From positions 1 through 64,000 of the forward strand of contig NZ_LOPS01000049.1 of assembly GCF_001481295.1 (NCBI RefSeq): DNA of 64,000 nucleotides, in the 5' to 3' direction. The notes beneath the pieces were generated by a model. It worked only from the letters and a program-made list of their open reading frames with translations, was not told where the DNA came from and did not search any database. Both the position numbers and the translations under genes were made by a program. Below, piece after piece: positions 40,087 through 64,000 of this stretch (position 1 is the stretch's first letter; the number at the start of each line of letters is the position of its first letter). Origin of the DNA: Candidatus Methanomethylophilus sp. 1R26 (GTDB lineage: Archaea > Thermoplasmatota > Thermoplasmata > Methanomassiliicoccales > Methanomethylophilaceae).

Positions 40087-40470
40087 TCACCCGCTCACGA
40101 ATCTGACGTAGTCCGCCTTCCCTGTGCGCTCTATCTCCCGGAGCATCTCCTTGAGGTCCTCGGCGTCGCAGGAGATCACCATCACCTCGAGGCATTTCTT
40201 ATTCTTCAGGTGGGAGTGGAGCTGCGTCTTGATAGCGTCCTGGTGCTTCGCCTGGATTATGCTCATCCACGGGTCCGAATGGTCGCGGCGGATGGTGATG
40301 AGGACGCCCTCCGTCAGGCCTTCCAGGTTCTCCATGTCGTCCATCTTCTCTATCTCGGAGGCGATGGCCGCGCGGACCGCTTCCGAACGCCCGCTGAATC
40401 CGAATGTATCCTGTATCTTGTCCAATTCAGCAATGTTCTCCTCGCTGAGGGAGACGCTCACGATCGCCAT
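40087..40470 (-). CDS. nikR: NikR nickel-responsive transcriptional regulator
   Basis: 127 residues: N-terminal ribbon-helix-helix (VSVSLSEENIAELDKIQ ... SGRSEAVRAAI) and a C-terminal ACT-like nickel-binding domain. All four ligands of the high-affinity Ni site can be matched: His in QAKHQDAI, His-x-His in QLHSHLK, and Cys in NKKCLEVMV. The start at 40470 (MAIVSVSLSEEN) is chosen over 40509. Divergent from a ZIP-family transporter, with a 128-base intergenic region carrying regular repeats, so it probably controls its own gene and the transporter. Confidence 0.88.
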   Translation of the reverse strand: MAIVSVSLSEENIAELDKIQDTFGFSGRSEAVRAAIASEIEKMDDMENLEGLTEGVLITIRRDHSDPWMSIIQAKHQDAIKTQLHSHLKNKKCLEVMVISCDAEDLKEMLREIERTGKADYVRFVSG

Positions 40471-40492
40471 GGCTGCGCTACGCAGATGTAAG

Positions 40493-40578
40493 TTATTAAG
40501 AGGTTGCAATGCAGTTAATAAGAAAGATACTTCACGGAAGCGATTGTTAATAATAAGCCAATCATCTTTTAATAATAA
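40493..40578. promoter_or_regulatory. Candidate NikR operator with four AT-rich elements, two pairs spaced 22 bp
   Basis: TTATTAA (40493) and TTAATAA (40515) form an inverted repeat with 15 bases between arms, an arrangement like NikR half-sites. TTAATAATAA occurs again at 40547 and 40569, also 22 bases apart. The last copy probably also serves as TATA box for the transporter, whose ATG is at 40599. Confidence 0.5.
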
Positions 40579-40598
40579 AATCGGAGAATGGGCGGAAC

Positions 40599-41380
40599 AT
40601 GGACAACGACACTGCGATCATCGTGTTCGCATTGGTCATATTCGCGATCACCCTGGCGGCCGCGAGGATCCCTTTCATAATCGGAAGGGAGAAGCACAGG
40701 GACCTGCACCGCTTGATAACATTCAGCGCGGGCGTGATGGTCGGAGTGCTGTTCCTCATGCTGCTCCCGGAAGCCCTCGAGAGGAGCTGGGACAACGGCG
40801 TCTCCGAGGACACCATGGCCATCGCCATGCTCTGCGGGTTCCTCCTGCTGTTCGCGGCGGACTTCCTGGTGAAGAAATACCTGATGAAGGAGGATGCCTG
40901 CGAGGAGACCGAGCATGACATCACATCGCTCTCGGCCTTCATCGGCCTCGCGATCCACTCCTTCTTCGACGGCCTTGCCCTGGCGGCGGCGTTCATCGCC
41001 GGCGAGGATGTCGGCATCATGGTGCTCATCGCCCTGTGCCTCCACAAGTCCGTGGTGGTGTTCTCCCTGTCCTCCACCATGCTCATGTCCCACGGCCACG
41101 GCCGCGCCTGGGCCTACCTCGTCGTTTTCAGCGCCATATCCCCGCTGGCGGCCGTCGCGTCGTACTTCGCCATGGATACCGGCGGGCTCGATACCGCCGG
41201 CATCGCGCTGTGCTTCTCCGTCGGCATCTTCGCTTCGTGACCATGTGCGACATGATCCCGGAGGCGTTCAGGCATGAGAAGAGGGACAACGCCCAGCTCC
41301 TGATCTTCCTGGTCGGGATCGCCGTCTGCTTCGCCGTCGCCCTGCTCAGCAAATCGCTGATGGGCGATGTCGACATCTGA
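40599..41380 (+). CDS. ZIP-family divalent metal transporter (one frameshift)
   Basis: Zinc/iron-permease family membrane protein of about 260 residues with eight expected helices. The metal-binding helix motif HSFFDGLALAAAF, the second HKSVVVFSLSS and the late MIPEAF are all present. The frame breaks near 41236 (missing base), joining GIFA to VTMCDMIPEAF and continuing to 41380. A hydrophilic loop has EDACEETEHD. Adjacency to nikR suggests nickel or cobalt may be a substrate, although most ZIP proteins carry Zn, Fe or Mn. Confidence 0.9.
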
Positions 41381-41390
41381 ACGGAAGAAA

Positions 41391-41404
41391 GGGGCTCAGG
41401 CCCC
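41391..41404. terminator. Hairpin between convergent ZIP and cbiA genes
   Basis: GGGGC-4-GCCCC inverted repeat at the point where the ZIP gene and cbiA converge. It overlaps the cbiA stop region. Confidence 0.4.
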
Positions 41405-42783
41405 TCTCCCGCTGTCTTCTTCTATACGCCGTTCGTCCGGCCGGGCCTTCTTCACGGACCCCCACGCCTCGCATCTTCTCAGGAAGCGGTAGGGGACCTC
41501 GGGATTGGAATAATAATAGAGATGGGGGAACCCGACCGATATGTTCCCCTCCTCATGGCCGCAGTCGTAGACCTTGCCGGACGTTTTCACGCCCTTCCAC
41601 GAGCTGCCGCAGTTGGAACTGTCCCAGTAATGGAACTCATGGCCTTTGACCCCGCCGGCGATGATGGAGTCCGGATCGTCCGATGTGAGGGTGACGTAGC
41701 CGAACCTCTTCAGATGCCCCGTGTTCCTCACCTCGCCCTTCACGATGCCGGCCATCGGCCACACCTTCCCGTCGCGTCCTCCATCCTCTCGTGGAGGTAC
41801 ATGAAGCCGCCGCACTCGGCGAGGACCGGCATCCCGGCTCCGATCTTCCTGCGCATGTCCTCCAGCATGGAGGTGTTGCCGCTGAGCTCGGCGCCGTGCA
41901 GCTCCGGATACCCTCCGGAGAGGATTATGCCCTCCGCCCCGTCCGGGATGCGGGCGTCCCTCATGGGCGAGAAGGGGACGATCTCGGCCCCGCACTCCTG
42001 CAGGAGCAGGATGTTGTCGGCATAGGTGAAGCAGAACGCCTCGTCGGAGGCCAGGCCGATCCTCACCGGCCTGTCCAGCTTCCCGTGGGCGGGGGCTTCG
42101 CCGTCGATCTCCGGCGCGGTCCCGGCGATCTCGATGATCCTCCCGATGTCCAGGGACTCCTCGAGGATAGCGGCCAGCCTGTTCAGGCCGTCCCTGAGCT
42201 CCTCCACCTCGTCCGGGAGGACCAGGCCCAGGTGCCGGCTGCTGAGCACCATATCTTTCAATCTGGGTATGTACCCGATGACCTCCACTCCAGCCTCCTT
42301 CTCGATGACCGGCTTCAGCGCGGCGTAGGTCTGGGCGCTGACGTTGTTCAGTATGCATCCTTTGATGAGGTTGCTCCTGAATTCCTTGAACCCTTTGACC
42401 ACGGCGGCGATGGAGATTGCCGCCCCGCGGCCGTTGACCAGCAGGACCACCGGGGTCTGGGTCTTCTCGGATATCTCGTAGGACGAGCCGATCACGGAGT
42501 CCGTCGACCTGCCGTCGTAGAACCCCATGACCGCCTCGATGACAGAGATGTCCGTCCCTTCGGACCCGCGCACGAACAGGTAGCGGAGCGTCCCGTCATC
42601 GGTGAAGAAGCTGTCGAGGTTCCTGGACTTGGTCCCGATGACCTTCTCATGGAACATCGGGTCGATGTAATCGGGCCCGCACTTGAACGACGAGACCTTC
42701 ATCTTCCGGTTGACCAGCGCCTGCAGGATCCCGCAGACGGCGGTGGTCTTCCCGCTCCCGGACGAGGGGGCGGCGATCATCAC
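41396..42783 (-). CDS. cbiA: Cobyrinic acid a,c-diamide synthase (one frameshift)
   Basis: Amidates carboxylates a and c of cobyrinic acid using glutamine and ATP. The ATP-binding N-terminus is IAAPSSGSGKTTAVCGILQ. The central domain is followed by a triad glutaminase with the nucleophile in LAECGGFMYLHERME and a catalytic His region KGHEFHYWD. The frame shifts near 41777; joining gives MED-G-DGKVWPMAGIVKGEV. Start is GTG 42783 or ATG 42780. It lies 14 bases after the CbiJET gene. Last gene of the cbi operon. Confidence 0.92.
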
Positions 42784-42797
42784 GCGGGGACGGACGC

Positions 42798-44771
42798 TCA
42801 GTTCGCGCGCCCCCTGAAGACCGCGATGTACACGGGGTTCTGAGCTGTCATGAGGTTATAGCGGCCGAGGTGCCTAGAGCCCGCGGCGTTGATGCAGACT
42901 ATCTCCTCCTGGTCGGCCGCGCATGCCTTGGGTATCTCCAGGATCTCGGAGAGGGTCTCGAGGGTGACGGCATTGACCGCGATCCGGCAGGACGGGTTCT
43001 TGGCCAGGATGCAGGAGACGATCTCCTTCAGGTTCCCGGACGACCCGCCGATGAACGCGTGGGTGGGGGCCGGGAGGCCTTCCAGGGCCTCGGGGGCGAA
43101 CCCTTCGACGATCTCGACGTTGGGCGCTCCCAGCTTCTTCCGGTTGGCATCGATGAGCTCCGCCGCCGCTTCCTCCTTCTCCACCGCATAGACCCTGCCG
43201 CGGTAGGCCGCCAGGGCCATCTCGACCGATACGGAGCCGGTGCCCGCCCCCACATCGTAGACGACGGAATCCGGAGACAGCCTCAGCTTGGCCACGGACA
43301 GCGCCCTGACCTCGGATTTGGTCATGGGGGCGTCGCCCCTGGTGAACTCCGAATCGGGGAGGCCGATAGGGTCCCTGGTGTCGGGCTTGGGATTGAACAC
43401 CAGCGCGCAGCACAGGCTCCCCAGCTCAGCTTTCATGATGTCGGCGGGACGGCCGCTCACGAACATCTCCTCCGGGTATCCGAGGTCGCAGCCGACATCG
43501 ACCGATACGTGCTCCAGCCCGTAATCGATCAGCTGCCTGCAGACCTCCCTGGTCCCCTCGGCGCCGTTCAGTATCAGGAAGGAGACGGCATGGGTCCTGA
43601 CCTCTCCGGCCGCGTTCGCGTCCCTGCCGTGGGCGCTGACCAGGTTCACGTCCTGCCACGGGATGCCCGCGCGGGCGCACATGTACTGCACGGACGAGAT
43701 GCCGCAGTGGGCCTCGGTCTCGAACTCCTCCGGGTCCGCCTGCTCGATCATCTGCCGGGCGGCGCTGTAGAACCCGACGTCCCCGGAGCACAGCAGGGCC
43801 GTCTTCCTGTACTCGGGATGGTCCTTCAGATATGCCAGTATCTTCGGGGCGGCGTATTCCTCGAGCTTCGGCTTGCCTTCGGCCTCCGGTATGGCCAGCA
43901 TGCGCCCGGCCCCGACGACGAGGTCGCTGGAGCGGACGGCCTCGGCCGCGGCGGAGGTCAGGCCGGTCCCGGGGCCCACGCCGATGCCGACGACGGCGAT
44001 GCGGCGCTTGGGCATCCGCAGCGTGACTCCGAGCTTCTCCTCCAGGATGCGGACGGTCTCCGCGAAGCCCTGCCCCGGCTGCTCCGGGGGCCTGCCGACG
44101 AGGACGACCCTGGCCCCCGCGCGGGAGGCGGCGCGCATCTTCTCGCCGAAGCCGCCGGGGGCGCCGGAGTCCTTGGTCACCAGCCATTTGGCCCCGGTCT
44201 GCAGTAGCATACCGTAGTCGAGCTCCTCGCAGAACGGGCCCTGCATCAGGAAGATGTTCTTCCCCTCGAACCCCAGGGCCGCGCACTCCTCGGCCACCTT
44301 GGGGAGCGAGAGGACGCGGGCGAACACCCTGTTCCGGTAATCGGGTATGGCCGTGTACTCGGCAAGCTCCTTGGAACCGGTCGTGGCGAGGATGTTTCCC
44401 TCCTTATCCTTCAGGTACTCGGCGGCCTCCTTCACCGACCCCACGATGACGGCGTCCCCGGTATCGGACCCGGGGCGGACCAGCCTTATGTAGTCGGCGC
44501 CCGCCTCCGCGCAGGCCTCCTTCACATGCGCGGATATCCTCGAGGCATACGGGTGGGTGGCATCCACCACCACGGGGTACTCCTTCATCAGAGCGAGCAT
44601 CTCATCATGTGCCAGAGGGTGCGCGGAGACTTCGATCCCCTCCGCCTTCCGGACGGATGTCCTGCCGTATTCGGTGGCCACGCAGGCATGCACCTTCACG
44701 CCCGCTGCGGCCAGAACCTCTGCTATGTCCCCGCCCTCGGTGGTGCCTGCGAAGACCAGTGCCTTTGCCAT
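42798..44771 (-). CDS. cbiJET: CbiJ-CbiE-CbiT fusion: precorrin-6A reductase + cobalt-precorrin-7 C5-methyltransferase + C15-methyltransferase/decarboxylase
   Basis: 657 residues with three corrin-ring enzymes in one chain. Residues about 1-255 are CbiJ/CobK (MAKALVFAGTTEGGDIAE; VVVDATHPYASRIS). Residues about 256-460 are CbiE, a SUMT-fold methyltransferase (IAVVGIGVGPGTGLTSAA). Residues about 470-657 are CbiT, a Rossmann SAM methyltransferase with decarboxylase activity (VYDVGAGTGSVSVEMAL). The order follows consecutive pathway steps. CbiE-CbiT fusions (CobL) are well known; addition of CbiJ is unusual. No frameshift in nearly 2 kb, so the fusion looks genuine. It starts 24 bases after cbiG. 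Confidence 0.93.
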   Translation of the reverse strand: MAKALVFAGTTEGGDIAEVLAAAGVKVHACVATEYGRTSVRKAEGIEVSAHPLAHDEMLALMKEYPVVVDATHPYASRISAHVKEACAEAGADYIRLVRPGSDTGDAVIVGSVKEAAEYLKDKEGNILATTGSKELAEYTAIPDYRNRVFARVLSLPKVAEECAALGFEGKNIFLMQGPFCEELDYGMLLQTGAKWLVTKDSGAPGGFGEKMRAASRAGARVVLVGRPPEQPGQGFAETVRILEEKLGVTLRMPKRRIAVVGIGVGPGTGLTSAAAEAVRSSDLVVGAGRMLAIPEAEGKPKLEEYAAPKILAYLKDHPEYRKTALLCSGDVGFYSAARQMIEQADPEEFETEAHCGISSVQYMCARAGIPWQDVNLVSAHGRDANAAGEVRTHAVSFLILNGAEGTREVCRQLIDYGLEHVSVDVGCDLGYPEEMFVSGRPADIMKAELGSLCCALVFNPKPDTRDPIGLPDSEFTRGDAPMTKSEVRALSVAKLRLSPDSVVYDVGAGTGSVSVEMALAAYRGRVYAVEKEEAAAELIDANRKKLGAPNVEIVEGFAPEALEGLPAPTHAFIGGSSGNLKEIVSCILAKNPSCRIAVNAVTLETLSEILEIPKACAADQEEIVCINAAGSRHLGRYNLMTAQNPVYIAVFRGRAN

Positions 44772-52258: not shown

Positions 52259-55200
52259 TCAGGACCTCATCCTCGCGACGATTACCGCCGCGCACACGAA
52301 CACTGCCAGCACGCCGGCCAGCACCCAGATCAGGCTCTGGTCGACCTTCTCGAACTCCGGGGATATCACTATGTCCGAGTTCACCGTGCCGCTGGTGCGG
52401 TTCCAGCCCTCGAAGTGGTACCCGTCCTTGGACAGGGATGCCCCGTCCCAGTCGGAAAGTATCTCCTTCAGGTCCGATGAGCCGTCGACCGTCTTGGTGT
52501 AGACTCCGTCAGCGACCGTCCAGTCGGAGGGGGCGCCGGAGACGGAGACCCCGGACAGGTCCAGGCTCACTCTGCACTGGCCGGCCTTCCATACGGCGTA
52601 GAAGGTGATTATCCCTCCTGCATCCGCATTGGACGCCAGCCCCTCGGTGAACTTCGTCACCGATATGGCGGAGTTGCTGTCGCCGCGCTCCAGGGACCAG
52701 CCGACCGCCGACTTGTTGCCCATCTTTCCGAGAACGGAACTGTCGGCCAGGGATATCTGGTCGCCCACAGTGTAGACGCTGCTGTCCACAGGCGGGTCGG
52801 CCGTTCCCCCGTTGGCGTCGTAGACGATCGTGTAGCTGATCGGGGTCCAGACGGCATCGAACCTGACCGTCTCGCCGCCGGACACGGACAGGTTCTTGAA
52901 GTACGTGCCGTAGGCGAGCGACAGGTCGCCGATCCTGTTCCAGCTGGACCCGTCCGTGCTGACCATGGGCACAGCGGAGGACCCGGCGCCGGTTATGGAC
53001 CATCCGGCGAACTCGTAACCGCTCCTGGTCCCGGGGACCAGCATGGTCGGCTCGTCGTACTGGGCGGTGATGGACCTGTAGCTCTGGGTGTCCCTGTCCC
53101 TGTACTCGATGGTGTAGCTCGCCGGGGTCCAGGAGGCGTAGAGGACGAACTTGTCCCCCGAAGAGGGCGCCATCTCGCGGGTGAACGCCGTTCCGTCCCT
53201 CAGGACGGCGGTGTCGCCGACGTTCAGGACCCAGCCTGCGAAGGCGTACCCGACCCTGGAGGAATCGGAAGCGACCGGCAGGGTGAGGGTCTGGCCGAGG
53301 GAGATCATGGTCTGCCTCAGCGTGTAGGTGCCCTCTCCGCCGTTCCAGTCGACGGTGATCGCATAGGTGGCGCGGGACCATGTGGCCGTCAGCTTGACCG
53401 TCTTCCCGGGATCGTCGGTGAGGTTGAGGAACACGGTCGCTGCGACCGCGCCGCCGGACCATCCGCGGAACCCGGACTCGGTCTTGTACTGAGCGTGCAC
53501 GGAGAGGTCGGACGAGGTCCATCCGGCGAACACGTACCCGCTCCTGGACGGAGCGTCTATGTGGACCTCGGAGGCGTACTCCGCGGTCCTGGGGGTGCTG
53601 CTGCCCGCAGTACCGTTGTTCAGGTCGTACTCTATGCCGTACGTCTGCCTGTCCCAGACAGCGTACATCACGATCTTCCCGTCGTTCCCGTGCCCTGCGA
53701 CGGCAAGGGAGTCGTCGAGGGTCGTCCCGGTCCAGGGGGCGCCGCCCTCGTAGTACGACCATCCGCCGAAGGTGTATCCTGCCCTCACGATCTCGGACTC
53801 GCCCGGGGCCCACAGGGTTATCGGGTCCCCGTAGGCGTAGTAGGAGGTGTTGGGCATGGTGCCGATCACCATTCCGCCCGAGAGGTTGTAGCTCAGGGCG
53901 AAGGAGATCTCGTTCCAGATCATGGAGAACGCGATGACGTCGCTGTTGGCGTCGCCCACGGCCGCGAGCTCCGCGCCCACGGTGAACGCGGCGCCGCTGG
54001 CTATGGTCTGGCCGCCGGCGGTCCAGCCGCCGAACCTGGTGTGGATGTTGAGGGTATAGTCCCCGATGCTCCAGATGGATGTTCCAGGCTGGCCGTACAC
54101 GGCCTCCATGTCGGGGTAGTTCGCCTTCACGGCGTTGGCCTGGGTCTCGCTCATGCCTGTAGTGTCGACGGAGACGGTGTAGGTCTTGGAGACCCAGCTT
54201 ACGGAGAGGATCAGCACCCTGTCCGATGCGAAGCTGTCGATCATCTGCTTGGTGAGCCTGAAGTCGGAGACGTAATGCTCGTCGCCGACCGAGCCTGAGA
54301 TCCCGGTCCAGTACCAGTAGCCGACCTTGTGGCCGGTCGGGGCCGATACGGCCGGGAGCTTGACGCCGTGCTCGTCGCTGTCCACGATGACGCCGGTCAG
54401 GTCCGCAGGGGCCTCTCCGGTGTAATCCTCGCCGAGGCTGAACCTGACGGTGTACTCCACCGGCTTCCAGGACCCTTCCATGGTCAGGTAGCACATGTCG
54501 GCCGCAGCCGCCATCTCATCTGTCAGCTGGTACTGGTAGTTGGGCATGAACAGGCCGTCGATCCCGAGGATCCTGTAGCCTTCGAACGTGTACCCAGTCT
54601 TCGTGTAGGTGCTCAGGAAGGGCACCACGGTGAAGTAGCCTCCCACCCTGCAGGATGTGGTCGCCGGAACCTTGTTCCCGGCGTCGTCGTTGATGCTGTA
54701 GGATATCCAGTATATCCCGCTGTTCATCAGGAAGGTTATCTCCGCATCGCTCGACGAATCGCTGAAGATCGCGTACGTCACAGAGGTTATGGCCGTCCCT
54801 CCGCAGAACGCCTTGTTGAGGGAGTACATGCTGTGCAGGGGCGTGGGCACCGCGAATCCGGCGGCGACCGCCGAATACGGGATGCTGTCGATGACGTCCC
54901 CGTCCATGTACTTGTTGTCCGGGATCTGCGTTCCGGCGCGCTTGTGGATGCCGTACTGGGTCCATCCGTTCATCTCGAACTCCGTCCCGGAGATGGTGGC
55001 GCCCGAATCGGAGAACCTGACGGTGATCGAGAACTGCCTCTCCTCGAACGTGACCTCCACCGAGATGTTCTTGGTAAACGTCTGGCCGGTGGCCAGCTCG
55101 GTGAAGTCGGTGGTGTTGAAGTAGCCGATCACCTTGTAGCCGACGGTCTTCAGGGAGATGTCCCTCCCGGAAGGATAGGTGTCGTCGGCGCACACGAGCG

Positions 55201-58200
55201 TGAGCCCTGAGGCCGGGTCGCTGCCGACGGTGAACGTGAACGGCCCTCTCACCGTCACGGGGCCGGCACCCTGGATGTGGTCCCCTGTGAAGGTAATCGT
55301 GTACTCGATGGAGCTGAACTTGGCGGTGTAGGTCTGGCCGGCCACGAACTTGGACGTTCCGGGCACGGCCTTGATGCCGTTGCTGTCGTACCAGCCTTCG
55401 AAGCTGTATCCGTCGGCGGGCACCTCCATGCTCTTGAACAGGTTGTAATCGGCAGGGTTCTTGAAAGAGGACCTCTCGCCGAACACGTGGTCGTAGTAGA
55501 CGCTGACGGCCGTGCCGGGGGAATCTCCCTTCGCGATGGTCACGGTGACCTCCATGTCCTCGGAGACGAGCTCGAACCTGTCGAAGATGTACCCGGCGCG
55601 GACCGAGGAGGCGGACGCGTCGAGATAGAACACCTCGCTTCCCCTGTAGATGGCCACGCTGAGCACCACGAGCTTGTCGTTGTCGAACTCGGGAACCGCC
55701 ATCAGAGATCCGTAATGGGCCGTCTGGGACAGCGGCGAGGTGCCCTCGCTGGACGTGATGGTGAAGGTAGCATCGCCGGCGTCCGAGACATTGCCGGTGA
55801 ACACCACCGGGACGTTCTTGGACAGGGGGTAGACGGGGACGGCCATACCGGACCTGGCCGTGATGCCGCTGCTGAAGTCGCTGTCCGAAGCGTACACCTT
55901 GATCGTGCTGCTCGCTCCGACCATGGTGAAATAGTAGTCGGCGGACGCGCCGTACGGCAGCACGATCATGCCGCCGTAGATGGCCTTGTAAGTCTCCTGC
56001 CCGGCGGGCAGGAGGACGGACACAGTGGAGCTGACCTCCTGCACGAAGGTGAAGGACCCGGAGAATGCGGACCTGCTGTCGGAATCGGCATGCACGGTGA
56101 CGGACATCCCCGGGCACGGCACGATCGAGGCCGCCATAGCGGAGTTCGCAGTGCCGTTGAACCAGAACGCCGCCGACGCGGTACCGGGTATGCCGGTGTA
56201 ATCGAACGCCCCCTCTCCTATGGAGGTCACGGACGCAGCGATGTAGACGGTGCTGAGAGGCGAGTTCCGGAAGGCATAGGCGCCGATCGACGTGAGAGAG
56301 TCGGGAATCACAGCAGACCTCAGGGAACCGCATCCCTCGAAGGCGCTCTCGCCAAGATAGGATGTTCTGGGGCCGAGGGTCACCGAGCGCAGCGCAGTAC
56401 TCTCGAACGCATGACCGCCGACAGAGGTTATCCTGATGAATGGGTTCAGGCCGGTCCCGGAGTTCAGCGATGAGAGCGTGACGCATCCGGAGAACGCATA
56501 ATCGCCTACGGAGGTTGCAACCGGGGCGCTGACAGATGCCAGAGCCCTGCATCCGTAGAACTGGTACGGAGCGATGGCCTTCGCCGCGGGCATCTCGGCC
56601 GAGACCAGGGACGTGCATCCGTAGAACGTGCCGTCGCGAACGTCTCAGCAGAGGTCATGACGACCGAGGTCAGCGCGGTGCACCCGTGCAAGTCTGCGAG
56701 GAACGAGACGGCCGCAGGGACGCTGATGCTCTGGAGCATCGGCACCTTGCAGGGATCGGAAGACGCCGAGCTGTTGAAGAGGTTCGCAGGCAGGGACTTC
56801 AGCGAGGGCGACGAGAAGGCCGTCAGGGAAGTGCATCCATAGAACGCATAATTCCCGACGGACTCTATGCCGCCCGATGTCCCGACGGTCACCGTCTTCG
56901 CGCCGGTCTCGGCGAACGCATAGCTGCCAATGTACTCGGCCGAAGAGAGCGCGTATGCTCCGGAAGCGTTGACCGATGTCAGAACGGAGCACCCGTAGAA
57001 CGCGAAGTCTCCCACCAACTTGAGGGCCGGCATAGTGACCGACCCGAGGTTGATGCACCCGCCGAAGACGGCGTACTTCGATGCATCGGAAGCCGAGACA
57101 GGAACGGAGACCTCCGTTCCGATGCTCTCAGCCGATTCCAGGGTGAGGGATACGAGCGCGGTGCATCCGGAGAATGCCAGCGCGCCCACCGACACCGCGG
57201 ATCCGGCCGTCACCGACGAGAGCACGGAGCATCCGGAGAACGATCCCTCCGGTATGCCGGTGAGCCCGGCGGCGGAGAAGGATTCCAGGGAAGCGCAGCC
57301 GCTGAAGGCGTAAGCTCCGAGGGATACGGTCCTGTCGGAGAAGGCTGCAGACTGCAGCGAGGCGCAGCCGTCGAAGACATATGTCCCGAAGGACGCAGCC
57401 AGCGGCATTGTTCCAGACGTGATGGATGTCAGACCCGACCCCGCGAAGGCCCTGTTCCCGACGGTCGCGGCGGCAGGGGCGGAGAAGGACGTGAGCGAGG
57501 CGCAGCCCTCGAAAGCGCTGGGCGAGATGTATTCGCTGATGCCCAGCACCACGTTGTTGAGGGAAGAGCACCCGTAGAACTCGCGCCCGTTCTGGAGCAG
57601 GAGGTTGGCCCTGTCGAGGTTGATGGTCTCCAGCGACCTGCAGCCCTCGAACATCGATGCAGGCAGGGTCAGGGACCTCGTGGACCCGCTTATGAGCGTC
57701 ACCTTGGCGAGCGATACGCAGTTCTTGAACTGCCCGGCCTGGCCGAGAGTGGTCGCGCCCGATATGTCGACCTCCTCCAAGTCGCTGAAGCCGCTGGACA
57801 TGTCCATGGTGAACCTGGTGACGGTCGGGATGATTAGCTTCTTCAGCTTTGTAGCAGAATGCGATCCCGCCGCCATGAACGTGGCCGACGGGAGCTCGGC
57901 TATGGTCCCGTAGACCTTCAGGGACAGCAGAGAAGTGCAGCCCTGGAAGACCTTATCTCCCATAGTCAGAGAGGCGCCGGAAGACCCAAGGACGACGTCC
58001 GTCACAGCAGAACCTGCGAACGCACCCTCGCCGACCACCCTCACGCCAGTCAGGCTGACGGTGTTGTCGGACGAGTTGATCTGCTTGATCCCGCTGTTCC
58101 TGAAGGCGTACTTCCCGATCTCGGTGCAGTTGCCGAAGGTAGCAGAGGAGAGCTTGGCGCATCCGTCAAAAACGGATTCCCCGACCTTGGTCATGGAGGG

Positions 58201-61200
58201 CAGGGAGGCAGACAGCATGGAGGAGCACTCGCTGAACGCGGCGGTGCCTGCCGTGAGCACCTGAGGTCCGGAGACCCCGGTCATACCGGTGCAGCCGCAG
58301 AACGCCTCCTGGCCTATCGAAGATACGGAATTAGGGAGAGAGACCGTCCCGGACAGACCGGTGCAGTCCCTGAACGTGCGTGTTCCTATGGATATGACGC
58401 CGTCTGCCACCGTCAGCGAGATTGCGTTGCTCTTGCTGTAGTACCACGGGGTGGTGATGTAATTATCCTCGGAATAGTCGCAGCCGCGCACGTAGCCGGT
58501 CAGCGTTACCGAAGTTATCCCGGTGCAGCCTGAGAAGCTGGGCGAGGAACCGCCGGCCGTGTTGAGGTCCGCAGGAATGCTGAGGGCCTGTATGCCGGAG
58601 CATCCGGTGAACCCGCCGTCCCCGATGCTGAGGACGCGCTCTATGGTCAGGGCGGAGATGTTCTTGCATCCGGCGAACGCATAGCTGCCTATGCTGGTGA
58701 TCGATCCCGGGATTACTATATTCCCCGAGAGGCTGGCACAGTCGCGGAACGCGTTGTCCCCGATATGATCCACAGTGTGGGCGAAGGACATGCTGATGCT
58801 CCTTCCTGAAACGCTGCTGATGTACCAGGGGGTGTTCTTGTAGTTCTTGTTCTGCGCACTCGGATGGTCGAGGTAGTCCACGCCGGCAGTTCCGGTGAAG
58901 CTGACCTGCGTTATCCCGGTGCATCCGCTGAATGCAGGATTGCCGTCGTCACAGACGGAGTTGACATCTACCGGAAGCGTAAGGGAAGCTATGCCGGTGC
59001 AGCCTGAGAACGATCCGCTGCCCAGGGCCGTGTCGGTCCTGGATATCGTGAGGGCGGTCAGGCCGGTGCATCCCTCGAAGGCGTGCGCACCCACCGATTT
59101 CAGAGCGGAGGACAGGGACAGGGGGCCGGTAAGGCCGGTGCAGCCGTAGAACATGCTGTCGCCTATCGAAGTCACAGATGATGCCAGGGAAAGGCTCAGC
59201 GTACCGTCCTGGAAAGATACCACGGAGTGAGGGTGCGGGCGCTCCCGTCCGACAGTTCGGAGTAAGCATATCCGTCCGTGCCGGTGAACGCTAAGGATGT
59301 GACGGATGCGCATCCCTCGAAGGCAGGGGATTCGGCCGATACCACCGTGTTCATCCCGATCGGCAGGGACATGGACCTTACCGATGTGCACCCGGCGAAC
59401 GAGGATTCTGAAACCGCCGCGCTTCCGCTGAGGACCAGGGAAGTCAGGCCTGTGCATCCATCGAAGGCATGAGCTCCGATCGGGATCGACAGGGACAGCG
59501 TGCCCTTCAGGGCGGTCAGGCCCTTGAACGTGTAGGCGCCGACGGAGGCGGAGGAACCGAAGTCCACGGCCACCGATGAGGCGGTGCTCATGTGCCAGGG
59601 AGTGAGCGCATAGTCGCTCTCGCTGTAGTCGTGCCCGGCGCCGGAGCCGGTGAAGACGACCGACGTTACCCCGGTGCATCCGCTGAATGCGGGGTCCGAC
59701 GGGTTCCCGACGGAATCGGCGGAGATGGGCAGGGAGACCTTCGAGATGGACGTGCATCCCCTGAAGGCCCCGTCGCCCAGGTCGGCCAGGTTCCCGCCGA
59801 GCATGACTGTGTTTATGCCTACGCAGGACCCGAACGCCTCATCGCCTATGGAGGTCACGTCCGTCAGGGACACGGCCCCGGCGCCGTTGAGGCTGGCCAG
59901 CGCGGTGCAGCCGTAGAACGCCTTGCTGCCTATGGTGGACAGGGCAGGGGCGGTCACGGAGGCGAGGGCGGTGCATCCCTCGAAGACGCTCGACCCGAGC
60001 GAAGAGGCAGCAGGCATGCTGATCGACCGCAGGGCGGTGCATCCGTAGAACACGCCGTCGGCGAACGACTGGGCCGACTGGGCATTGACGTTCGCCAGCT
60101 TGGTGCATCCGTGGAGGTCGGCATCGAAGGTGACCACAGAGGGCACGGAGATCGAGACGAGCTCCGGGGTCAGGACGGCCGTCTCCTTCCCGACGTTCCC
60201 GAACAGGCCGGCCGGCAGGTCGGTGATCCCGGGCGCAGAGAAGGAGGTCAGGCTGGCGCATCCGTAGAACGCCATGTTTCCGACCGTTCCGGAGCCGATG
60301 TCCGCGGAACCGAGCACGACCTGCTTGGCGCCGGTGCCGGCGAAGGCGGCGAAGCCGACGTTCCGGACCGAGGAGAGGTCCATCTTAGATGTTGAGTTGA
60401 ACAGTACCAGATGGTCGCATCCGTAGAAGGCCATCGGGCCCACGTCGGTCAGGACGGGCATCTTCACGGAGGCGAGGGCGGTGCATCCCAGGAACACGGC
60501 GGGCGTCGTGTCCTCTTCCGTGTCTATCTCTGATATATCGGAAGTTATCCCCACGCGGACGGCCGCCGGCATCTCCAGCGAGGCGAGCCTGTAGCAGTCG
60601 GAGAACGCTCTCTCGGCGATCGAAGCGGCCGCAGGCACGGACACCGATGTCAGAAGGCTGCATCCGCGGAGCATCTCCGCAGGGATCGCCTGGAGCCCGG
60701 GCGCGGAGAACGAGGTCAGGGCGGTGCATCCGCGGAAGGCTTCCGATCCGGAGGATTCGGTCGCAGCGGGCAGGGACACGGTCGCCAGGGATGTGCATCC
60801 GCTGAACGCCCCTGCGCCCAGCGACTGGACCTCCGGGAACATGCTGTCGGATACCGACTGGAGCCCCGATGAGGCAAAAGCGCGTGCCCCTATGGATATG
60901 GCCTGAGGAGCGCTGAAGTGGATCAGGGCGGTGCATCCGAAGAACGCCTCCTGGGAGACAGAGGGCGACATGGTGAGATCGGCAGTGTCCAATGAGGTGC
61001 AGCCGTAGAACTCGCGGCCGTTCCTGAGCTCCGCCTTCTCCAGATTCACGATTGAGAGGGACGTGCATCCCTCGAACATCGACTTGGGCAGGACAACGGT
61101 GCTGGACGAGCTGGCATCGTTGAACAGGACAACGGTGACGAGCGCAGTGCAGTTCTTGAACGTGCCCTCGGTGGACCCGAAGCTCGTGGTCCCGGATATA

Positions 61201-64000
61201 TCCACAGCTGTAAGATGTGAGAAACCGGACAGAGTGGCCGAGAACTGGTTGGCATGCCTGACATTGAGGGTTGTGAGCATTGATTCGAAGGCCGATGACC
61301 CAGACAGGGTGCTTGTCTTGAAGTCGCTGATGGTGCCGTCGACCGTGAGCGACATCAGCTGGGCGCACTCCTGGAACGCGTAGTTCCCGATGGTGAGGGC
61401 GGTGCCCTCCTTCCCGACGGTGACGTTGATCACTCCGGAATGCTTGAAGGCGGAGTTCCCGAGAGAGGTCACCTCTGTGAGAGACAGCGTTGATGAGCCG
61501 TTGAACAGGGAAAGCGACTGGGTCTCAGCGAAAGCGCTGTTCCCGATGGATGTCAGGGTCCCGAGTGTGACACTCGTGAGACCGGTGCAGCCCTCGAACA
61601 TGGAATCAGGGACAGATGTCATCCTCGGAAGGTCGGCCGATGACATCGAGGTGCATCCCTTGAAGACGGCTGTCCCGGAAGTGGTCACGGATTCGCCGGT
61701 AACGGCGGTGAACTTGGTGCAGTCCTGGAAGGCGCCGTCGCCGATCGATGTGATCCCTGAGAGGTTCAGGGTGCCTCCGGTGCCGGTCAGCTCGGTGCAT
61801 CCGGCGAACATCTTGGCTCCGATCCTCTGGACGGAGCTCTCGACGGTCAGCACGATAGAGTTGTTCCTGCTGTAGTGCCAGGGAGTATAATCGGAGTTGA
61901 TGAGGTAGTCATACCCGACAGTGCCGGTGACTGTCAGCGCCCTGATACCGGTGCATCCCCTGAATATAGGTCTGGCAGTGTTGCCGACAGTATTGAAGGA
62001 CACCGGGAAGGCGAGATTTCTGATGCCGGTGCATCCGTCGAATGCTCCGTCGCCCAGCATCGGCGACCCTTTGATCTCCAGCGAGGTTATTCCGGTGCAT
62101 CCGGAGAAGGCGTACTTGCCTATGCCGGCCAGGTTGGAGGGTATGGAGAGAGCTCCGCTGATGCCGGTGCATCCGGCGAACATGTAGCTGCCGACGGACG
62201 TGACCGTGGGAGCGAGAGTGAGGCTGATGCTGTTGGCCTTGCTGTAGTACCAGGGAGTGCGATGATAGTCCCCGTCTCCGGAATCTGAATATGCGAATCC
62301 GGAGGTTCCGGTGAACGTGATGCTGCGGATGCCGGTGCATCCGTCGAAGATAGGCGCATCGGAACTGCCTGCGGCATTGAAGGATATGGGCATCGAGAGG
62401 TTCCTGATGCCGGTGCATCCGGAGAAGGCTCCGGTGCCGACATCGATGACCGAGTCTCCGACGGTGAGCGCCGTCATGCCTGTGCATCCTCTGAACGCGT
62501 ACGCGCCGATGTCCGAGATCCCGTCCAGCGACACCGATGTTACCTTGGCGCACCCGTCGAAGGCATGCGTCCCGATCTCGGTGAGACCGCTCGGGAAGAA
62601 TATGCTCCCGCTGAGGCCGTAGAACGATGACCCGCTGGACGACCAGCATCCGGCGAACATGTAGTCCCCTATGGACTTTACCCCGGTGAAGGAGACAGAG
62701 ATATCCCTGCTGGTACAGCTGGCGCGCCACGGGGTGCCAGCAGCGCTGCTCTCATCGTAATCGAACCCTTCTCCGAAGGACGACCCGGCAGTGAACGCGA
62801 ACGTGTGCACGGGGCAGTTCTCGAACATGGACGAAGTGTATTTCAGGCCGATCGGAAGGGTGAGTGACCTGAGTGCCGTGCATCCGGCGAACGCGCCCTC
62901 GGCGATGGTCTCCACCGAATCCGGAACGGTCAGGCCGGTCAGGTTGGTGCAGTTCCCGAAGGCATTGGAACCGATGGACTGCAGGCCGCTGTTGAGGGCC
63001 AGAGCGGACAGCGGAGCTCCGCTGAAGGCATACTGGCCTATGCTGCGGAGCGTCGACGGGAACGTAACGGTGTTCGCCGCATTGAGGTACGAGTAGTCCC
63101 CTATGGACACGATGCCCTCATCCAATATGAGCGTGTATCTGGGACAGTTGTGCCAGAACAGATTGGCGCTCGAGGATGACGTGTATGCTGCGCCCTCGCC
63201 CGTTCCCGGAGTGAACCGCAGAGTGGTGATGTGCGTGTTCGAGCTATTGGTTCCGACATCCATCTTGAAAGAGATGGGAACGGTCAGGTTGGTCACTCCT
63301 GAGCAGTTGTAGAACGCGTTGCTCCCGGCGGACTGAAGCCCATCCGAAAGGGTCAGCGTTGTAATCTTGTTGCAGTTGTAGAACGCGTTCGCCCCGATCT
63401 CCCTGACGCTGTCGGCAAGGGTGACTGAGGTTATCGATGCACGGTTCACGTCGTTGCGGTAGAACATGTACGGGTCAACGGCTGTGACACCGTCCTCGAA
63501 CGTGACTGAGATCTGCCATCCCGAATAGTTCCACCAGGACCACGGCATCGATCCCCAGTTCGACAGATAATAGTTGGTGGCGAGGGCCGAGGCCCCGTTG
63601 CCTGTGAAATGGAACTCCGAAATGCGTGTGCCGGTGTCGAAAACAGCGTGAAGCTGGACGCTTATGGGGACCGTCAGTTTGGTTATCCCGGGGCATTCGT
63701 AGAACACGTTGTTGTTCTGATTCACGGTGAACAGCGTCGCCGCCGTGCTCTTCACGACGACTGAGGTTATCCCGGAAGATCCCCTGAAGGCGTTAACGCC
63801 AACCGAAGTCAGGTATTCGGGCAGCACGACCTCTCCCGTGATGGAAGAGTGATAGAATGCCGACTTGTAGATCGTGTTGACCGTATCCGGGATGATGAGT
63901 CCGTTCTTCACCATCTTGGCAGGGCAGATCATCAGTACATTGACCGACTTGTCGTAGAGGATCCCCTCGACAGTGGTATAGGACTGATTGGAGCTGTCCA
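52259..64000 (-). CDS. Giant BspA-like / InlB-repeat surface adhesin (partial at the right edge; two frameshifts)
   Basis: At least 3,900 residues; the N-terminus lies beyond 64000, where the frame is still open (VEGILYDKSVNVLMICPA). From the right edge to about 56000 it consists of BspA-like leucine-rich repeats (LRR_5) with units such as VTSIGDSMFYGCTGLTGPLS and IGSYAFAGCKNIS. From about 55500 to 52500 at least six InlB-type (Flg_new/Listeria-Bacteroides) repeats follow, each ending in FxGWxx (for example YVFAGWTSS, YTIVYDANGG). The C-terminal membrane helix is LIWVLAGVLAVFVCAAVIVA with a basic tail. Frames shift near 59215 and 56635. Gut methanogens use such proteins at the cell surface; a binding role is inferred. 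Confidence 0.87.

Follow-up and report, generated by a model that had tools for sequence, protein, structure and literature searches.

Among ribbon-helix-helix (RHH) proteins, NikR has been reported to be the only one regulated by a metal (PMC7055735). In E. coli, its operator is GTATGA-N16-TCATAC, with half-sites 22 bp apart, and the nickel ligands are His87, His89 and Cys95 from one subunit plus His76 from the neighbouring one (PMC7055735). The operator of H. pylori NikR, TRTTA-N15-TAWTA, has a spacing of 20 bp (PMC5385501). Zinc uptake in bacteria is regulated by Zur, a member of the Fur family. When a DtxR-like regulator, ZntR, was predicted for znuABC in Methanosarcina, the archaeal genomes then sequenced contained no recognisable Fur/Zur homologues, and the COG0523 family of GTPases was linked to zinc homeostasis (PMC2770081). 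No earlier report of a NikR-type zinc regulator was found in the open-access literature. For most archaea, we know of no zinc-uptake regulator.

Here we describe a pair of conserved inverted repeats located between a nikR-like gene and a divergent gene of the ZIP transporter family in a methanogenic archaeon of the gut type. With a probability of about three in four, we consider these repeats to be a double operator of the adjacent NikR paralogue, most likely repressing the uptake of zinc when this metal is sufficient. The system resembles NikR of E. coli, H. pylori and Pyrococcus horikoshii in its RHH and NikR_C fold, in a dyad whose half-sites are two helical turns apart, and in the equivalents of H87, H89 and C95. 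It differs from NikR in that the regulator belongs to a separate paralogous clade and has lost His76, the half-site is TTAWTAA rather than GTATGA, and the predicted targets are ZIP and ZnuABC-type zinc importers instead of nickel transporters. The likeness to Zur is one of function, not of homology: the predicted targets (znuABC, ZIP and a COG0523 GTPase) are shared, whereas the NikR fold is unrelated to that of the Fur family. ZntR is likewise a predicted archaeal zinc-uptake repressor with a COG0523 link, but it has a DtxR/MntR fold, another operator, and occurs in another lineage. The NikR-like system would thus be a further, independent archaeal solution beside ZntR.

A probable double operator between two divergent genes

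The window analysed is a stretch of 64,000 nucleotides from Candidatus Methanomethylophilus sp. 1R26 (contig NZ_LOPS01000049.1). Within it, the nikR-like gene (40087..40470, minus strand) starts at 40470 and the ZIP gene (40599..41380, plus strand) starts at 40599, confirming the divergent arrangement proposed in an earlier note on this DNA. The 128 bp between the two start codons (40471-40598) contain four TTAWTAA half-sites at offsets of 0, 22, 54 and 76. The same note had reported an inverted repeat, TTATTAA-N15-TTAATAA, with arms 22 bp apart, and this is present exactly where it was placed, with TTATTAA at 40493-40499 and TTAATAA at 40515-40521 (dyad 1, 40493..40521). It had also reported a direct repeat, TTAATAATAA, which indeed lies at 40547-40556 and again, 22 bp further on, at 40569-40578; this pair fits equally a second dyad, TTAATAA-N15-TTAATAA (dyad 2, 40547..40575), which deviates from TTATTAA-N15-TTAATAA by one mismatch and has its inner half-site at 40547..40553. 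Each dyad spans 29 bp, and the distance from the first to the second is 54 bp. The similarity to the half-site spacing of NikR that had been pointed out is borne out by the 22 bp of the E. coli protein (PMC7055735) and the 20 bp of the H. pylori protein (PMC5385501).

Both dyads, inner half-sites included, stand out in a shuffle test, as the number expected in dinucleotide shuffles of the window is 0.00. They are also preserved under divergence: a genome of the same species, with about 90% identity here, carries 29 substitutions in the 128-bp region, all of them outside the 28 half-site bases (P=0.0003), leaving the half-sites of dyad 2 intact as well.

The position of the dyads relative to the genes is also constrained. 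At 33 of 37 loci, 19-23 nt separate the dyad from the start codon of ZIP. The promoter statistics, which cover the genes of the 64-kb window, show AT content peaking at -32 to -24 relative to the start codon. Taken together, these two observations indicate that the outer half-site most likely serves at the same time as TATA box for a transcript with almost no leader, a role that the inner half-site cannot play. The outer half-site of dyad 1 (40493..40499, read on the minus strand) is centred 26 nt upstream of the nikR-like start codon, and that of dyad 2 (40569..40575, plus strand) 27 nt upstream of the ZIP start codon, so that the pair of dyads covers the predicted promoters of both genes.

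Across the 1.72-Mb genome, whose assembly is fragmented (50 contigs, 83% complete), the exact dyad, defined as TTAWTAA-N15-TTAWTAA, is rare. Three were found: the two described above and a third on contig C26, where a partner dyad with one mismatch lies exactly 54 bp away, repeating the spacing seen between nikR-like and ZIP. The C26 dyads lie upstream of an operon encoding ZnuA, an ABC ATPase and an ABC-3 permease. This ZnuA contains HHHH in its loop, and its best NCBIfam match is the zinc-specific AztC, below the cut-off.

A divergent NikR paralogue

The nikR-like gene encodes a regulator of 127 aa with both domains of the family, RHH_1 (25.2 bits) and NikR_C (39.5 bits), each above its Pfam cut-off. 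Its AlphaFold (AF2) model has a mean pLDDT of 91, and the best PDB matches retrieved by Foldseek are the NikR structures 2bj3, 2hza and 6mrj, with a probability of 1.00. The NCBIfam equivalog for nikR (TIGR02793) scores 47.4 bits against a cut-off of 175.45. The closest named NikR-like protein, from Candidatus Methanomethylophilus sp. UBA78, shares 71% identity with it. A second protein, of the true NikR type, is encoded in 29 of 30 genomes, and phylogenetic analysis separates the NikR-like and true NikR groups with full support.

H85, H87 and C93 of the window protein are the equivalents of H87, H89 and C95, while position 76 is occupied by alanine, so that three of the four nickel ligands are present. 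All the NikR-like proteins in the alignment share these three without exception. At the His76 position, 46 of 66 have another residue, and the remaining 20 keep all four ligands. Since about a third of the clade retains the complete set, ligand loss alone cannot define specificity. The idea that a switch of specificity came about through loss of His76 alone was accordingly rejected, several of the proteins that keep it having the same operator and the same neighbours. As it fails the tests on ligands, score and target genes, the window regulator should be filed as a divergent NikR paralogue and not as NikR itself, and the annotation "nickel responsive regulator" is probably incorrect for the NikR-like clade.

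As for the true NikR paralogue, only one of the 24 upstream regions contained a dyad of the GTATG type, and we therefore assign no operator to it. Three such proteins (L162, L163 and L164, in genomes G017, G018 and G014) have no His/Cys metal ligands and keep the DNA-binding strand; they are possibly metal-independent regulators.

Conservation of the dyad across relatives

The earlier note had proposed to look for conserved spacing near nikR orthologues in related genomes. This comparison shows that the dyad is kept across the family and beyond, and the operator hypothesis survives it. The dyad is found upstream of the orthologous nikR-like gene in most relatives, and it occurs with at most one mismatch in 59 of 61 family genomes. 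Among the loci of the named genomes, it lies within 220 nt of the nikR-like gene in 55 of 69 and is absent from the other 14, while none of the 24 true nikR genes compared with them has it upstream. Other Thermoplasmata also carry it (L232 and L233), as does an Altiarchaeales genome (L234), where the dyad accompanies a divergent ZIP gene and a regulator protein with 39% identity.

Exact dyads are present at 45 of 70 loci, against none in 200 shuffles, and half-sites number 166 where about 5 are expected. Half-sites recur at just three common distances, 22, 32/33 and 53-55 bp, all of them close to multiples of a whole helical turn. Most half-site columns are 90-100% conserved, the spacer is not, and the 22-bp spacing is fixed across loci. 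Many relatives have a single dyad at the ZIP promoter; the window has one for each of the divergent genes.

Genes carrying the site

In a scan of 30 genomes, 36 of the 42 exact dyads were located at most 250 nt upstream of ZIP, znuA or nikR-like genes, zones that make up about 0.04% of the sequence; given that these genomes are related, the 42 dyads do not represent 42 independent events. The dyad also precedes ZIP genes unlinked from nikR-like (G058, G017 and G043) and znuA genes situated elsewhere in the genome, as in the window's own organism, an arrangement that argues for action in trans. Conversely, it stays with the nikR-like gene even where this is separated from ZIP (L078 and L080). 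Two sites that at first looked orphan (L081 and L082) turned out to lie upstream of znuA. Six exact dyads lie away from the three families of predicted targets. One of them is upstream of a CobW/COG0523 GTPase gene (L241), and the other five are at chance level, a reversed-pattern control giving 4 in 30 genomes.

No exact dyad was found at any of the 29 true nikR genes of the 30 genomes, nor near the Ni/Co transporter gene cbiM, the latter statement referring to exact dyads nearby in this genome scan. Six of the 15 znuA genes also have no exact dyad, and some of them show other spacings. At two loci upstream of znuA (L245 and L247, in G023 and G048), pairs of TTATTAA are about 32 bp apart and not 22, which may represent a three-turn arrangement.

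ZIP and ZnuA replace each other, with none of the 30 genomes lacking both (Fisher P=0.017, a small test on related and partly incomplete genomes). Such mutual substitution suggests a common cargo. In the genomes that have no CbiM, ZIP does not take its place. Several of the relatives' genomes are incomplete, which affects all presence and absence counts. In addition, a gene of the TerC/Alx family adjoins ZIP or diverges from nikR-like at six loci (L172, L174, L015, L021, L192 and L203). In bacteria, TerC/Alx genes are linked to manganese.

A putative zinc-uptake repressor and its alternatives

We propose that one NikR-like tetramer would bridge two TTAWTAA half-sites 22 bp apart, a distance of two helical turns, and that a second tetramer would occupy the same face of the DNA at a distance of 54 bp, about five turns. 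As the outer half-sites are at the TATA positions of both divergent genes, the bound protein would block access of TBP/TFB to the promoters of both ZIP and the regulator itself. A drop in zinc would release the protein from the DNA, allowing ZIP to be made, and with it the ZnuABC-type operon that carries the same operator elsewhere in the genome. That the metal is probably zinc is suggested indirectly by gene content: ZIP, the ZnuABC-type operons and one COG0523 GTPase. In dozens of related archaea, the genes that carry the site encode zinc importers, which indicates that the sensor was probably repurposed from nickel to zinc control, and the availability of a separate NikR paralogue for nickel was counted in the same direction. 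Counted against zinc were the TerC/Alx neighbours, the retention of ligands within the clade, the loci at which the nikR-like gene has no dyad, and the znuA genes without one.

A reading without an operator would take the elements for nothing more than TATA boxes or AT-rich stretches of promoters. The TATA position of the outer half-sites would agree with this, as would single TTATTAA elements near the starts of several true nikR genes. We rejected it as scarcely credible, however, since the inner half-sites, which have no TATA function, are equally conserved, and the 22-bp pair marks three gene families specifically and is absent from the other promoters of the genome. An operator bound by some other regulator is also very improbable. 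The dyad follows the nikR-like gene where ZIP does not, and a two-turn spacing suits a NikR tetramer.

The identity of the signal leaves more room for alternatives. The earlier note had proposed a nickel operator. On this reading, the NikR-like protein would bind the same dyads but sense nickel, with ZIP and the ZnuABC-type system importing that metal. Methanogens need much nickel, and this high demand is in line with such a reading. So are the NikR fold of the regulator, its three invariant ligands, the relatives that have all four, and the NikR-like operator spacing (PMC7055735). On the other hand, nearly every genome has a second gene of the true NikR type that is devoid of the dyad, cbiM has no exact copy of it, ZIP is not a substitute for a missing CbiM, and the window protein has lost His76. 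The NikR-type operator in that proposal is supported by its 22-bp spacing, its conserved dyad and its coverage of both promoters. The nickel component is not supported, the regulator being a paralogue distinct from the genome's own true NikR and without His76. Nickel control of both flanking genes likewise finds no support, as the dyads precede ZnuABC-type operons and a CobW/COG0523 gene and are not found in exact form at true nikR or cbiM. We therefore consider nickel unlikely. The same regulator and operator could instead respond to another metal, for example manganese, cobalt or iron. Transport by ZIP and ZnuA-type proteins is not strictly limited to zinc and can extend to other metals, including manganese or iron, and TerC/Alx genes adjoin some copies. 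This is nonetheless improbable, as the histidine-rich ZnuA and the COG0523 link indicate zinc, and His/Cys ligands favour zinc, nickel or cobalt over manganese.

With zinc as the preferred signal, it is likely that this NikR-derived RHH protein is the zinc-uptake repressor of the Methanomethylophilaceae and of related members of the phylum Thermoplasmatota, a counterpart of Zur that would have arisen through duplication of NikR, with the fourth nickel ligand lost in the lineage of the window. If so, the control of a zinc regulon by a NikR paralogue would illustrate a change of metal specificity within a single sensor fold, and would provide a large group of gut methanogens with a zinc regulon defined by exact operator sites.

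Other features of the window

The product of the ZIP gene matches Pfam Zip with 78.6 bits, and its frame is interrupted near 41232, the open frame ending at 41240. Compared with the longer intact frame of the same-species genome, one base is missing near 41232, and the remainder (41225-41380) is in another frame; the break probably stems from an error in the assembly or from a mutation of recent date. The adjacent CobB/CfbB-like gene (41396-42783, minus strand) is seemingly split between two frames near 41740 as well, which hints at base errors in that stretch of the assembly. At 42798-44771 (minus strand), a single protein of 657 aa matches, one after the other, precorrin-6A reductase, CbiE and CbiT, and so looks like a CbiJ-CbiE-CbiT fusion. 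At 52262-56593 and 59199-63932 (minus strand), two very long frames are open over 1444 and 1578 aa.
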